Shown here one piece after another: positions 14,733 through 19,667 of a stretch of 42,509 nt of DNA. Origin of the DNA: Candidatus Desulfatibia profunda (GTDB taxonomy: Bacteria; Desulfobacterota; Desulfobacteria; Desulfobacterales; UBA11574); assembly GCA_014382665.1 (NCBI GenBank), contig JACNJH010000164.1:1-42509 (forward strand), in the 5' to 3' direction. The notes under the pieces were generated by a model. That model saw only the letters and a program-made list of their open reading frames with translations, did not search any database and had not been told where the DNA came from. The first letter of the stretch is position 1. Each line of letters opens with the position of its first letter. The translations under genes were made by a program, and so were the position numbers.

Positions 14733-15725
14733 ATGTCAAAGACTCATAAGGGCCGGAAGCTGGTTGTGGGTGTGGGATCAGCACTTATTGATATCCTGGC
14801 ACACGAAGATGACGACTTTCTGACGAAAACCGGTGCTGTTAAAGGCGGGATGACGCTGGTCGATAACGATTTCATTGAACATGTCCTGTCACTGACAACC
14901 GGCAAGCCTCGAATTGTTCCGGGAGGATCTGCTTGCAACACCGTTGTGGGCATCGGAAATCTAGGTGGGCACGCCCGCTTTGTCGGTAAAAGCGGCCGAG
15001 GTAAAATGGCGGTTTTTTTCGAAACGGATCTAAAGAAAAACAATGTTGAGCCGTTCCTTTTTAATTCGCCTTCACCGACCGGCAGGGTGCTGTCTATTAT
15101 CACGCCTGATGCCCAGCGTTCCATGTTTACGTTTTTGGGCGCATCTTCAGAAACGCGCCCTGAAGAAATCACAAAAGAGTGTTTTGAAAATGCAGCTGTT
15201 GTGCATATCGAAGGGTATCTGCTTTTCAACGAGGAGCTGATACTGGCGGCCTTAGATGCAGCCAAAGCCGCCGGTGCCCGCGTATCCCTCGATCTATCCA
15301 GCTTTACGGTTGTTGAAGAGTCCAAAACGCTCCTTGAAAAGATCGTTAAAGATTATGTAGATATCCTGATTGCCAACGAGGATGAAGCGCGTGCCTTTAC
15401 CGGCTGTTCGGATGAAATCAAGGCGATCAAAGCACTTTCTGAAAATACGCAGATTGCAGCGCTTAAGATCGGCAAGCGGGGGAGCCTGATCGCCCATGCC
15501 GGCAACATTTTAACGATAGAACCCAAGGGCGGCGGGGATGCGGTTGACACAACCGGTGCCGGCGATCTCTGGGCGGCAGGCTTTTTATTCGGCCTAGTCA
15601 ACGGTTACAGCCTTGCAAAATGTGGAAAATTAGGATCAGCCTGCGGCTATGAAGTGTGCCAGGTTATCGGGACAAAAATCCCGGAGGACGGCTGGCATAG
15701 AATCAAAAAATTATTGGAGGAATAA
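14733..15725 (+). CDS. PfkB-family carbohydrate/nucleoside kinase
   Basis: The protein has 330 residues. The N-terminal PfkB signature is visible (PGGSACNTVVGIGNLGG), and the C-terminal signature DTTGAGDLWAAGFLFG contains the anion-hole Gly-Ala-Gly and the catalytic Asp. Proteins of this shape include ribokinase-like and adenosine kinase-like enzymes; the early segment GSALIDILAHEDDDFL with MTLVD resembles the adenosine-kinase-like branch. The exact substrate cannot be set. The ATG at 14733 is taken; a GTG six bases earlier is also possible. Its TAA overlaps the next ATG by one base (TAATG), so the following TPR gene is translationally coupled. Confidence 0.85.
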   Translation: MSKTHKGRKLVVGVGSALIDILAHEDDDFLTKTGAVKGGMTLVDNDFIEHVLSLTTGKPRIVPGGSACNTVVGIGNLGGHARFVGKSGRGKMAVFFETDLKKNNVEPFLFNSPSPTGRVLSIITPDAQRSMFTFLGASSETRPEEITKECFENAAVVHIEGYLLFNEELILAALDAAKAAGARVSLDLSSFTVVEESKTLLEKIVKDYVDILIANEDEARAFTGCSDEIKAIKALSENTQIAALKIGKRGSLIAHAGNILTIEPKGGGDAVDTTGAGDLWAAGFLFGLVNGYSLAKCGKLGSACGYEVCQVIGTKIPEDGWHRIKKLLEE

Positions 15726-16417
15726 TGGCACAGAAAAGGGTGTCACGAGCACGTAAAAGGGACCTGGAACAACCTGACAAGGTTACAACTTTTTTATACA
15801 ATTTGCTTGATTTTGCTGCGCGATATAAAGTTCTTTTGTCCACCGCATTGGGGCTTTTTGTCGTCTTTAGCATAGCCTTGGCAGGCATGCTATACGTTGC
15901 GGACAAAGCTGAAAACAAGGCATTTTTCCTGCTGGCACAGGATCTGAATAAATACCAAAGCATTATCAAGACCAGCAGCCCGGATAGGGCCTATCTCGAT
16001 GTGGCCGACGATTTTAAGCTGATTATGCAACAGTATCCCCGGAAAGTGGGGGGGAAATTCGCCAGATTTATGTTCGCCAATATATGCTACAAGGCAGGCA
16101 ACTATGACAAGGCCATAGAACTATATAATCAAGCACTTTCCGAATTTGGCGATAATCCGTTTTTCAAGAGCCTCGTCTTGAACAGCTTGGGATACGCTTA
16201 TGAAGCCAAAGCGGATTACAAGCAGGCGGCAACGTATTTTGAGATGATAGCTTCAGAACCCGACTACCGTATGAAAGATGAGGCGCTTTTTAATTTGGCG
16301 CAGATTTATGCCGCCAAGGGTAACGATGATGGGCGTTTAAATGCATTTAAAAAGATTGTATCGGACCATAGCGACTCGATATACTTAGAGATCGCCAAAG
16401 AAAAGATCCCCGGCTAA
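15725..16417 (+). CDS. Membrane-anchored TPR protein
   Basis: The protein has 230 residues. A basic N terminus is followed by one membrane span (about residues 36-58, LLSTALGLFVVFSIALAGML) and then an extracytoplasmic region with tetratricopeptide-type helices (about 105-225, including YKAGNYDKAIELYNQAL and YKQAATYFEMIA). It resembles YfgM-type proteins that work beside the Sec translocon or outer-membrane assembly machinery, but sequence alone does not settle this. A strong ribosome site (TTGGAGGAATA) lies within the end of the PfkB gene. Its stop codon touches the terminator of the predicted minus-strand small RNA. Confidence 0.8.
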   Translation: MAQKRVSRARKRDLEQPDKVTTFLYNLLDFAARYKVLLSTALGLFVVFSIALAGMLYVADKAENKAFFLLAQDLNKYQSIIKTSSPDRAYLDVADDFKLIMQQYPRKVGGKFARFMFANICYKAGNYDKAIELYNQALSEFGDNPFFKSLVLNSLGYAYEAKADYKQAATYFEMIASEPDYRMKDEALFNLAQIYAAKGNDDGRLNAFKKIVSDHSDSIYLEIAKEKIPG

Positions 16418-16491
16418 AAAAAATGGCCAACCGCGCCGCTGTCGATTAGCCATTAAGGAGGAAAGCTGATGAAGAAATTTATCAGTTTTCC
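16416..16491 (-). ncRNA. Predicted sigma-54-dependent small RNA, about 76 nt
   Basis: On the minus strand the predicted transcript starts at 16491 or 16490, the correct distance from the -24/-12 element. Its first bases GGAAA-A-CUGAU pair with AUCAG-C-UUUCC to form a 10-bp hairpin with one A-C mismatch and a 10-nt loop. A short unpaired UCCUU follows. The last part is a 12-bp stem with two G-U pairs (16454-16443 with 16433-16422), a 9-nt loop, and eight U residues (16423-16416, two of them in the stem). This is a textbook intrinsic terminator. The segment UUUCCUCCUU is complementary to Shine-Dalgarno sequences. The gene sits downstream of a sigma-54 regulator gene on the same strand. It is untested; the structure was folded by eye. 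Confidence 0.65.
16422..16454 (-). terminator. Intrinsic terminator of the predicted small RNA
   Basis: The stem is AATGGCTAATCG with CGGTTGGCCATT around a 9-nt loop, followed on the minus strand by a T run reaching 16416. There is no T tract on the plus side, so it works for leftward transcription only. Confidence 0.75.
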
Positions 16492-16499
16492 TTTTGTTG

Positions 16500-16517
16500 T
16501 TGCAAGTTTCCTGCCAA
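16500..16517 (-). promoter_or_regulatory. Sigma-54 promoter of the predicted small RNA
   Basis: On the minus strand the sequence reads TTGGCAGGAAACTTGCAA. GG and GC are exactly 10 bases apart, and only one base departs from TGGCACG-N4-TTGC. It points away from the response-regulator gene and toward the terminator at 16454-16416. The three palindromes lie upstream in the usual place for activator sites. Confidence 0.65.
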
Positions 16518-16635: not shown

Positions 16636-16651
16636 GTTCAAACTTTTGAAC
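16636..16651. promoter_or_regulatory. Palindromic activator site 1
   Basis: GTTCAAACTTTTGAAC is a 16-bp palindrome with one central mismatched pair. Its centre is about 150 bp upstream of the predicted small-RNA start. It has the same half-site (GTTCAAA) as the two others. Confidence 0.6.
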
Positions 16652-16712: not shown

Positions 16713-16728
16713 GTTCAAAAATTTGAAC
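16713..16728. promoter_or_regulatory. Palindromic activator site 2
   Basis: GTTCAAAAATTTGAAC is a 16-bp palindrome with one mismatched pair. Its centre is exactly 77 bp from that of site 1 and about 230 bp upstream of the predicted start. Confidence 0.6.
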
Positions 16729-16789: not shown

Positions 16790-16805
16790 ATTCAAAATTT
16801 TGAAC
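16790..16805. promoter_or_regulatory. Palindromic activator site 3
   Basis: ATTCAAAATTTTGAAC is perfect over its inner 14 bp. Its centre is exactly 77 bp from that of site 2. It lies just after the response-regulator gene's stop. An extra TTTGAAC half-site occurs at 16862-16868. Confidence 0.6.
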
Positions 16806-16857: not shown

Positions 16858-18237
16858 TTAATTTGAACCGGTGTCCAATTTGAACTTTTTTATTTTCCAG
16901 TTTAGTCCGCTTTTTCCGATGCCGAGCAATTCGGCTGCCTTGGATTGGACGTTGTCGGTCAACCTCAAAGCCCTTTGGATCATCTTTTTTTCTATCATTG
17001 CCAGGGTGTCATCCAGTTTGGCATCCGCCGGGATCCCTTCAATGTGTAATGTATTGTAAACACTATTTTTAAACTCCTTGGGCAGACCCGTTATCGTTAT
17101 GAGGCTGCCTTGGCACAACACCATGGCGCGCTCGATAACATTTTCCAGTTCGCGCACATTTCCGGGCCAGCTGTAATCGTGAAAAAGACGTTCAACTTCC
17201 GGATCAACACCCGTTATAAGGGTTTTGGATATATGTTCGCCTGTATATTTTTTTATAAAATGGTCGACCAGGGGGCGAATATCTTCCAGATGCTGCCTTA
17301 AAGGCGGCAGGACGATGTGCACCACATTCAGTCGATAGTAAAGGTCATCCCGGAAGCGCCCCTTGTGCATTTCGTCTTTCAAAGTTTTATTTGTTGCCGC
17401 AATAATGCGGATGTCGACAGACAAAGACTTCATTCCGCCGACGCGTTCAAAGCCCTTTTCCTGGAGAACCCTCAGAAGTTTTACCTGAAGGTTGTGAGAG
17501 AGCTCACCGATTTCATCCAAAAACAGAGTCCCGCCGTCAGCCAGCTCAAATCTCCCTTTTTTCGTGGCAATGGCACCGGTAAAGGCACCCTTTTCATGGC
17601 CGAAAAGCTCGCTTTCCAGAAGACTTTCGGCGAGCGCACTGCAGTTCACCGCAATAAAAGGCTTATCACGCCGCGGACTGTTAAAATGAATCGATTTGGC
17701 CACCAGTTCCTTGCCGGTTCCGCTTTCACCTTCGATCAGCACCGTTGCATTAACCGTCGCAACTTTACGAATAGTTGCGAAAACATCCTGCATGACTTTG
17801 CTTTTGCCGATGATATTCCCGAAACGGTAGTGGGATTCGACGGCGTCGCGAAGGTGTCGGTTTTCCTTGACCACCCGAAACATGGCGATGGCCTTGTTTA
17901 CATAAAGAACCAGCCGCTCGTTGTCAAACGGCTTGAGTACATAATTGTAAGCACCTTTCTGCATTGCCTCCACAGCCTTATCCACAGTTCCGTGAGCCGT
18001 CATCATGATGACCGGAAGCTCCGGATCTTCGGTTTTGATATGCTCAAGCAGTTCAATACCGTTCATAGCAGGCATCTTCATGTCTGTCAGTACCAGGTCC
18101 ACATCGGAATGTTTGAGAATATCAAGGGCCTCCTGGCCGCTGTTGGCGGTTAAGGTTTCAAAGCCTTCTTCTTCCAGAACCGCACTTAATATCGGCGGAT
18201 AATTTTTTTCATCGTCTACGATCAGGACCGTTTCCAT
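16858..18237 (-). CDS. NtrC-family sigma-54 response regulator
   Basis: The protein has 459 residues. Residues 1-120 are a receiver with the phospho-accepting Asp52 (TDMKMP), Thr in MMTAHG and Lys in LKPF. The AAA+ domain (about 140-375) has Walker A (GESGTGKE), an intact sigma-54 contact loop GAFTGA, Walker B ([10 protein letters not shown]) and the GNVREL motif. The C terminus is a Fis-type helix-turn-helix ([21 protein letters not shown]). It should therefore activate RpoN promoters. The ATG at 18237 follows GAGAGG and lies two bases after the kinase stop. Three palindromes and a sigma-54 promoter lie directly downstream on the same strand, its likely target. The signal is unknown. Confidence 0.92.
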
Positions 18238-18239
18238 GA

Positions 18240-19667
18240 CTATACCTCTCGTCTTACGGGTATTTCCACCGTAACCTTGGCGCCGCAATCCTGTCTATTG
18301 CTGATGCGGAGCTTCCCTCCATGAGACTCGATAATATTTTTTACGATACCAAGGCCCAATCCGGTTCCCTTTTCCTTGGTTGTAAAAAAAGGACTCCAGA
18401 TCTTTTCCAAAAGGTCTTCAGGAATACCCTGGCCTTCATCTTCAAAATGGATGGATACCATATTACCGTGTGAAGTGATTGAAACATAGATTTTGCCACC
18501 GCCCGGCATGGCCTGCATGGCATTTATTAAAATGTTAAGAAATGCCTGATACAACATGTCGGAATCGGCAAGTACTCGCGGAAGATTATCATCACAATGT
18601 GTTTCGATCACATAGCCTTCTGCTTGGATCTGTGATGCCAGAAACGTGATATTCTTTTCAAGAATCTCTTCAATGCTGCACAGCACCAGGCTCGGGCTCT
18701 TGGGTTTGGCATAATTTAGAAAATCTGTTATGATGTTGTTTAAACGGACAGATTCTTCAATAATGATAGCGGGTATCGAATTTGAAGGATCGGAACTGCC
18801 CATTTTTTTCTTTAAAAGTTCGGCGGAGCTTCTGATAATGCCCAATGGATTCCGGATTTCGTGGGAAACAGCCGCTATCATCTCGCCCAGTGAAGACAAA
18901 CGTTCGGCTCGATTGAGTTGCTCCTGGAGCCGGAGCTTCTCCAATGCTCTTCTTTCGCTGATGCCTTCACCCCTTTTGACCACCAATAGAAGCACTAAAA
19001 AAAGCAGTCCCATGACCACAGTACAGGTAATGATAATGCGTATCTGAAAATCGAAAATTGCTTTGTAATCTTCAGATAAATCCTGCACAATTTCCACAAC
19101 TCCAAGCACCGGGCCGGATATTCTGGAAAGTGGTTGTTCGGCACGCAGCGGCGCAAAGGTAATTAATTTGCTGTCACGGGGCAATCCCAAGAGAATTTCA
19201 ATCCAATTGCCTCTTTGAATCAGCTTTGAAGTCGACTTGCCGGCAATGGCATCCTGATAGGCTTTGCCGCCAAGATCCGTTTTGCCGACCACAGTCGTGT
19301 CAAAGCTGTAAGAAATAGTGTCCTCCATATCGTAGATGTTGACCATGTCGATTTTAAAGCTGTGAAGTGTGCTACGGACGACTTTATCCATGTAATTAAA
19401 CTGATTTTCATCACTGAGCCGAATCCTGCCGAATTTCAAAACCACCGGAATAATAAACTGCAAAAAAACCTGATGGTTCAGGTTCTCGATCAGCAGATGG
19501 GCATAGTCTTCACTCTTTTTTTGCTGCAGGCTCTTGGCCAAGTGCGTGTTGAACAAAGAGAGAATCAGTGTCCCCATAAATATTAAAATCAGACTCGTAA
19601 ATGTAAAGTATTTGACCAGCCTGAAAGGTTTGACTTGTTCTTCTGATGTTTGCAAGTTCGCAGCCAA
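18240..19667 (-). CDS. Sensor histidine kinase paired with the sigma-54 regulator
   Basis: The protein has 475 residues. Two membrane spans (about 22-44 and 208-230) flank a periplasmic sensor region of about 160 residues. The coiled linker leads to VSHEIRNPLG with His269, followed by the N box (NILINAMQAM), G1 (DEGQGIPE), F box (WSPFFTTK) and G2 (GTGLGLGI), all intact. The architecture resembles ZraS/AtoS-like kinases. The start is a TTG at 19667 with AGGA upstream; no earlier start exists before a stop and no ATG lies before the first membrane span. The regulator gene follows two bases later, so the pair is co-translated. It is transcribed away from the pilus operon. Confidence 0.9.
   Translation of the reverse strand: MAANLQTSEEQVKPFRLVKYFTFTSLILIFMGTLILSLFNTHLAKSLQQKKSEDYAHLLIENLNHQVFLQFIIPVVLKFGRIRLSDENQFNYMDKVVRSTLHSFKIDMVNIYDMEDTISYSFDTTVVGKTDLGGKAYQDAIAGKSTSKLIQRGNWIEILLGLPRDSKLITFAPLRAEQPLSRISGPVLGVVEIVQDLSEDYKAIFDFQIRIIITCTVVMGLLFLVLLLVVKRGEGISERRALEKLRLQEQLNRAERLSSLGEMIAAVSHEIRNPLGIIRSSAELLKKKMGSSDPSNSIPAIIIEESVRLNNIITDFLNYAKPKSPSLVLCSIEEILEKNITFLASQIQAEGYVIETHCDDNLPRVLADSDMLYQAFLNILINAMQAMPGGGKIYVSITSHGNMVSIHFEDEGQGIPEDLLEKIWSPFFTTKEKGTGLGLGIVKNIIESHGGKLRISNRQDCGAKVTVEIPVRREV

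Follow-up and report, generated by a model that had tools for sequence, protein, structure and literature searches.

The window analysed here (42,509 nt, contig JACNJH010000164.1 of Candidatus Desulfatibia profunda) carries on its minus strand a gene for a sensor histidine kinase, followed by one for a sigma-54-dependent response regulator. Behind these lie a -24/-12 promoter, a predicted small RNA (sRNA) and an intrinsic terminator, the end of which meets a convergent TPR-repeat gene (Table 1). The regulator is of the NtrC type, with a receiver domain, an AAA+ domain containing GAFTGA, and a Fis-type helix-turn-helix with the recognition helix SGLNWK. The gene upstream of the predicted RNA had been read in the first-pass annotation as a complete sigma-54 activator with an intact GAFTGA loop, part of a two-component system, and the Pfam assignments agree.

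Table 1. Features of the two-component system and sRNA locus in the window
Feature	Position	Strand	Basis or remark
Sensor histidine kinase: N-terminal membrane region, HisKA, HATPase_c	18240..19667	minus	Pfam HisKA 1e-13, HATPase_c 1.9e-25
Sigma-54-dependent response regulator	16858..18240	minus	Pfam; likely sRNA activator
Candidate enhancer (UAS) palindrome 1, GTTCAAAATTTTGAAT	16790..16805		Sequence
Candidate enhancer palindrome 2, GTTCAAATTTTTGAAC	16713..16728		Kept at a constant distance in relatives
Candidate enhancer palindrome 3, GTTCAAAAGTTTGAAC	16636..16651		Sequence; relatives
-24/-12 promoter, TTGGCAGGAAACTTGCA	16501..16517	minus	Pattern match; TGGCA and TTGCA (nearly) invariant in relatives
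Predicted sRNA, ~76 nt	16416..16491	minus	Covariance-model match, 97.8 bits; start inferred from promoter
5' hairpin, GGAAAACUGAU/AUCAGCUUUCC	16460..16491	minus	Fold; lineage-specific
Anti-RBS segment around UUUCUUCAUCAGCUUUCCUCCUUAAU	16452..16482	minus	Relatives' equivalent complementary to SD and AUG AAG AAA of porin-type mRNAs
Intrinsic terminator hairpin and U8	16416..16454	minus	Fold; stem covariation
Convergent TPR-repeat gene	15725..16417	plus	Stop codon overlaps sRNA terminator end by 2 nt

The promoter and terminator block and its conservation

Both the near-consensus promoter and the terminator hairpin with a U tract that were first noted at this locus were recovered. The promoter has 1 mismatch to TGGCACGN4TTGCW and is the only sequence in the window with no more than one. 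The terminator consists of a hairpin (16454-16422) and a U8 tract (16423-16416), although it was not listed by a simple terminator scanner run on the window. The fold of 16491-16412 has an energy of -24.8 kcal/mol (z = -3.3), which was equalled by 1 of 200 shuffled sequences. The hairpin proposed for the first bases of the RNA is present in the window, but it is not a family feature; it is confined to the window's genus and, in part, the sister genus g4. Elsewhere, the 5' stretch reads ACCUAAUAAUUUCUUCAUC and has no consensus hairpin. No match to Rfam 15 was found in the window at the gathering cut-off.

When the block was used as a BLAST query against 24 genomes of the family, matches were found in eight of the nine genera, and in every family member with readable DNA at that position the block follows the ortholog of the regulator (77-86 % identity). 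An ortholog of the TPR gene occupies the equivalent position in relatives. In the alignment, the TGGCA and TTGCA boxes are invariant and the middle of the RNA is nearly so. Compensatory changes were seen in 8 of the 13 pairs of the terminator stem and pairing holds in 98.6 % of cells, values that slid versions of the alignment fall far short of. The first-pass annotation had called for a search of relatives and a covariance analysis, and had named loss of the promoter or hairpins in relatives retaining the regulator as contrary evidence; instead, promoter, RNA and terminator persist downstream of the regulator orthologs and the stem covaries.

A covariance model identified the RNA in 190 of 291 Desulfobacterales genomes, representing 96 of 138 genera, and some genomes of the order carry two to four copies. 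The named matches belong to the Desulfobacterales; elsewhere in the phylum, the model matched in 9 of about 378 genomes. As the block is conserved behind an orthologous regulator, its stem covaries and the RNA recurs across the order, it goes beyond chance and is confirmed as real. Matches to Rfam using the relatives' sequences were at chance level with both gathering and relaxed thresholds.

Weaker, divergent sRNA-like matches occur in other orders of the phylum (L168, L170 and matches in families f82, f106, f121 and f137). At least two of the divergent matches from other orders sit behind regulator homologs (56-57 % identity), and this group suggests an older origin of the sRNA. At L090 (G202), L094 (G033) and L245 (G136) the sRNA occurs as a tandem of two or three copies spread over about 300-1100 bp, every copy with a promoter of its own, an arrangement resembling the multiple Qrr copies. 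No second copy was found in the window's genome, where the best partial match, L002, was dismissed as a chance match.

Enhancer sites and the predicted activator

Three palindromes (TTCAAAA-TTTGAA; GTTCAAAA-TTTGAAC) lie upstream of the promoter at a spacing of exactly 77 bp. In relatives, the corresponding palindromes are at about -145, -222 and -300, in adjacent and remote sRNA copies alike; those in the window are 11 bp nearer the promoter, about one helical turn. In some relatives, GTTTCCATTTGGAAAC replaces the TTCAAA-type palindrome, and the two types (TTCAAAATTTTGAA versus GTTTCCAAATGGAAAC) are paired with recognition helices carrying, at one position, W or Q and K, respectively. W or Q accompanied the TTCAAA type at 19 of 19 loci and K the GTTTCC type at 11 of 11, i.e. 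30 of 30 in total (Fisher 1.8e-8 on an assumption of independence that related sequences violate).

The sRNA and the regulator are apart in many families, yet the TTCAAA-type sites are kept. An ortholog of the regulator (E<1e-200) is present in 21 of 22 genomes with a remote sRNA versus 3 of 16 with no detected sRNA, and weaker sRNA-like matches exist behind divergent regulators. Because the palindrome type tracks the recognition-helix residue throughout, the neighbouring regulator probably activates the sRNA, remote copies included. The idea that kinase, regulator and RNA form one compact unit holds for the window and for relatives in which the three adjoin, but this is only one of two layouts, the RNA being remote in many families. 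One genome, G006, has two copies of the regulator (L041 and L061) with different recognition helices, and the DNA behind one of them is masked (N).

Complementarity to outer-membrane protein mRNAs

In the first search of the family, most of the additional short matches fell on the translation starts of genes for porin-like proteins (CATTAAGGAGGAAAACAGATGAAGAAA), which are antisense to the middle of the RNA. An unbiased search used only the 38-nt core as BLAST query against 30 genomes, with gene-start matches recorded at E<=0.03. Of 23 such matches, 19 were to outer-membrane (OM) beta-barrels, namely 18 porin-like outer-membrane proteins (OMPs) and one TonB receptor; the remaining four were MlaC, an OmpA-domain lipoprotein, one unknown exported protein and glutamine synthetase. 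The OMPs form related groups with signal peptides and C-terminal aromatic residues, and several match Porin_4 or Alginate_exp over the cut-off; some were assigned from signal peptide, C-terminal aromatic residue and homology, with no Pfam match over the cut-off. Sequence searches of the PDB with the porins returned nothing useful. The same BLAST also returned the sRNAs themselves and a few non-coding copies of the core. Non-coding copies of CATCTGTTCTCCTCCTTAACG, followed by other hairpins and lacking an evident -24/-12 promoter, were seen at L114, L119, L120, L121, L192 and L193 (G190) and L116/L235 (G050), and are perhaps a sibling sRNA family that shares the anti-SD core.

For duplex prediction, porins were picked by protein profile, independently of their ribosome-binding sites (RBS). 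Duplexes with the cognate sRNA had energies between -26 and -51 kcal/mol, ten of the 13 being -33.9 or lower, against control means of -17 to -22. By complementarity, then, the conserved core is antisense to the Shine-Dalgarno (SD) sequence and start codon of OM beta-barrel genes; in relatives, this complementarity extends over several OMP mRNAs, as in antisense sRNAs that repress OMPs. The proposal of a sigma-54-controlled sRNA made in the first-pass annotation is largely right; the porin target class was absent from it.

A further region of complementarity lies in the porin leaders. In most lineages the 5' end of the sRNA reads CCUAAUAAUUU and is complementary to AAAUUAUUAGG, a motif that lies ~35-70 nt ahead of the start and is often repeated. 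Exact matches of 8-13 nt were present in 17 of 26 leaders, each with shuffle p<=0.015, though such small p-values are inflated by the relatedness of the sequences. In G093, G065 and G230 the leaders match the genome's own sRNA, though short of p<0.05 against shuffled leaders, and leader sites are absent from the porins of G147. Duplex energy alone did not separate cognate from non-cognate pairs among closely similar seeds, so the comparison relied instead on the length of the longest exact match and on covariation at single bases.

Changes in the sRNA 5' end are accompanied by changes in the leaders. In seven families CCUAAUAAU in the sRNA corresponds to AUUAUUAGG in the leader, and in three (G031, G037 and G045) CCUGAUAAU corresponds to AUUAUCAGG, the leaders there reading AUUAUCAGG or UCAGG. 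The sRNA of G230 has CCAAAUAUU and its leader carries AATATTTGG. In G065, the sRNA has AAACCUACUCC and the leader is a TAGGTTT array; at L187, upstream of 1588, an OMP leader of this genome contains about 17 tandem TTTAGG units complementary to its own sRNA 5' end, an array that is possibly length-variable. Covariation is also seen at another position, 5' of the SD, where sRNA CUUAAU faces mRNA AUUAAGG in three families (U-A) and CUUAAC faces GUUAAGG-type mRNA in eight (C-G), with G045 and G230 as exceptions. Compensation expected for the U/C difference within CUGUU(U/C)UCC was not seen, the porins of C-type genomes still having mostly GGAGGAAA. Overall, unless pairing is under selection, intermolecular covariation of this kind is difficult to account for.

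Most of the 26 OMP leaders also contain an extended SD-like sequence, GGGAAAGGAGGTGA, ~75-120 nt upstream of the start and with no properly spaced start codon of its own (including L122, L124-L127, L129, L118 and L185). A second sRNA site and a ribosome standby site are candidate roles for it.

The sRNA in the window is divergent. Its 5' sequence is GGAAAACUGAUAAAUUU, the common seed CCUAAUAAUUU is lost, and part of the anti-RBS segment is held inside a hairpin. Searches of the genome that the window comes from, a fragmented and incomplete assembly, with a porin profile, with Porin_4, with SD-MKK patterns and by a duplex scan turned up no convincing porin target. The scan covered 656 kb of its contigs (17 % of the assembly, read directly) and gave, for 1,428 starts against the genome's own sRNA, a mean of -16.2 and a best value of -33.5 kcal/mol. 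One porin-like gene runs off the end of a contig. As the common seed is lost, the targets of this sRNA may have shifted. The divergent copy may nevertheless act on porins too, and the porin leaders of this species are predicted to hold complements of GGAAAACUGAUAAAUUU.

Proposed function and relation to known systems

The reading we favour, and hold to be probable, is that the RNA is a trans-acting, base-pairing sRNA under sigma-54 and two-component control that represses porin translation. The kinase would phosphorylate the regulator, which would bind the tandem TTCAAAA-TTTGAA palindromes and, by looping, activate sigma-54 RNA polymerase at the -24/-12 promoter, giving an RNA of ~75 nt with its end at the intrinsic terminator. 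The conserved middle of this RNA, UUUCUUCAUCUGUUUUCCUCCUUAA, would pair with the SD and start codon (UUAAGGAGGAAAANNNAUGAAGAAA) of OM beta-barrel mRNAs and its 5' end with one or more of the leader sites, blocking ribosome entry and lowering porin levels. The sequence supports the promoter, the terminator, conservation of the family, the match of regulator to UAS and the covariation of RNA with mRNA; we infer transcription, the repressive direction, the need for Hfq and the signal sensed. A more ambitious extension, which we advance only tentatively, is order-wide porin silencing in which a single sigma-54 two-component system would drive one or several sRNA copies that act at two mRNA sites (SD/start and repeated UUAGG(U/C)), with several sRNAs per mRNA and with repeat number setting the strength of silencing.

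Other explanations were weighed. The least probable is that the plus strand encodes a micro-protein, with AAGGAGG and ATG AAG AAA as its translation start (MKK...). Most relatives have a perfect SD-ATG arrangement on that strand, but the supposed ATG is ATA in G019, G021 and G023, the frame is not conserved, its length varying from 6 to 33 codons, and it would run backwards through the sigma-54 promoter, both promoter and terminator having minus-strand polarity. Nearly as improbable is that the hairpin merely terminates the kinase-regulator operon or the convergent TPR gene and that the -24/-12 match is fortuitous. The hairpin does share the regulator's strand and lies on its 3' side, about 440 nt past the regulator's stop codon. 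However, promoter, anti-RBS core and UAS are conserved jointly, the plus strand has no U tract, and the idea is largely refuted by the many copies far from the regulator that retain promoter, UAS and terminator. An sRNA that, like CrcZ or RsmZ, sequesters a protein (Hfq/Crc or CsrA), with the porin complementarity a side effect of generic SD/MKK pairing, is also very unlikely. It would fit a gene layout like that of cbrB-crcZ (PMC8871633), but matches across genomes are mostly to OMP genes rather than to random MKK genes, cognate covariation with the leaders is seen, and the core has neither repeated A-rich motifs of the CrcZ type nor an Rfam match. All three of these readings were rejected.

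Somewhat less improbable, though still unlikely, is that the RNA activates or stabilizes porin mRNAs, for example by covering a nuclease site, or that in the window's genus, where the seed has diverged, it acts mainly on other targets. Binding at leader sites 35-70 nt upstream of the start need not block ribosomes, and a target in the window's own genome was not found; against this, the most conserved part of the RNA directly covers the SD and AUG. Repression of porin translation remains the preferred reading.

The first-pass annotation knew of no sigma-54-controlled sRNA in a setting of this kind, but cbrB-crcZ provides a precedent, as crcZ immediately follows cbrB and depends on both sigma-54 and CbrB (PMC8871633, PMC6292655). 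The likeness to CbrAB-CrcZ/CrcY of the Pseudomonadaceae extends to an sRNA directly behind an NtrC-type regulator, a sigma-54 promoter, (here predicted) activation through several sites, and extra remote paralogous copies, there CrcY and CrcX (PMC8871633, PMC6292655). CrcZ sequesters Hfq/Crc, whereas the Desulfobacterales RNA has an antisense core and covaries with mRNAs. Membership of the CrcZ/CrcY family found no support, with no Rfam match and, by inspection, no repeated A-rich Hfq/Crc motifs in the conserved core. CrcZ is also much longer than the Desulfobacterales sRNA.

Other sigma-54 sRNAs under response regulators of the NtrC family are Qrr (LuxO), NrsZ (NtrC) and GlmY (GlrR), and the Qrr RNAs occur in several copies and base-pair with mRNAs. 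The present RNA shares with sigma-54/EBP-dependent sRNAs a -24/-12 promoter just upstream and, in silico, enhancer sites for the cognate activator, but differs from Qrr, NrsZ and GlmY in organism, sequence and targets and has no Rfam match, the Qrr family included.

Among sRNAs that repress OMPs are MicF, OmrA/B, RybB and VrrA. In Burkholderia, NcS25 pairs with porin mRNA from -14 to +16 and represses it (PMC10117139). The predicted pairing over the SD/start region of porin mRNAs is common to all of these, but they have other promoters (e.g. sigma-E or OmpR) whereas a neighbouring sigma-54 two-component system is the predicted driver here. We know of no report of repeated leader seed sites for any of them. 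A literature search found nothing on such an RNA in Desulfobacterales, and within the literature searched neither this combination, nor the family spanning the order, nor repeated seeds in the leaders had been described.

To our knowledge, post-transcriptional regulation has hardly been described in the Desulfobacterales, a major group of anaerobes. If the proposed reading is correct, the order would have a widespread sRNA family whose activator, enhancer code and targets are all predicted and testable. The logic known from enterobacteria, in which an envelope signal leads via an sRNA to fewer porins, would recur under another sigma factor, with a two-component system as its trigger, and the covariation between RNA and leaders constitutes a natural compensatory-mutation data set for sRNA-mRNA pairing.
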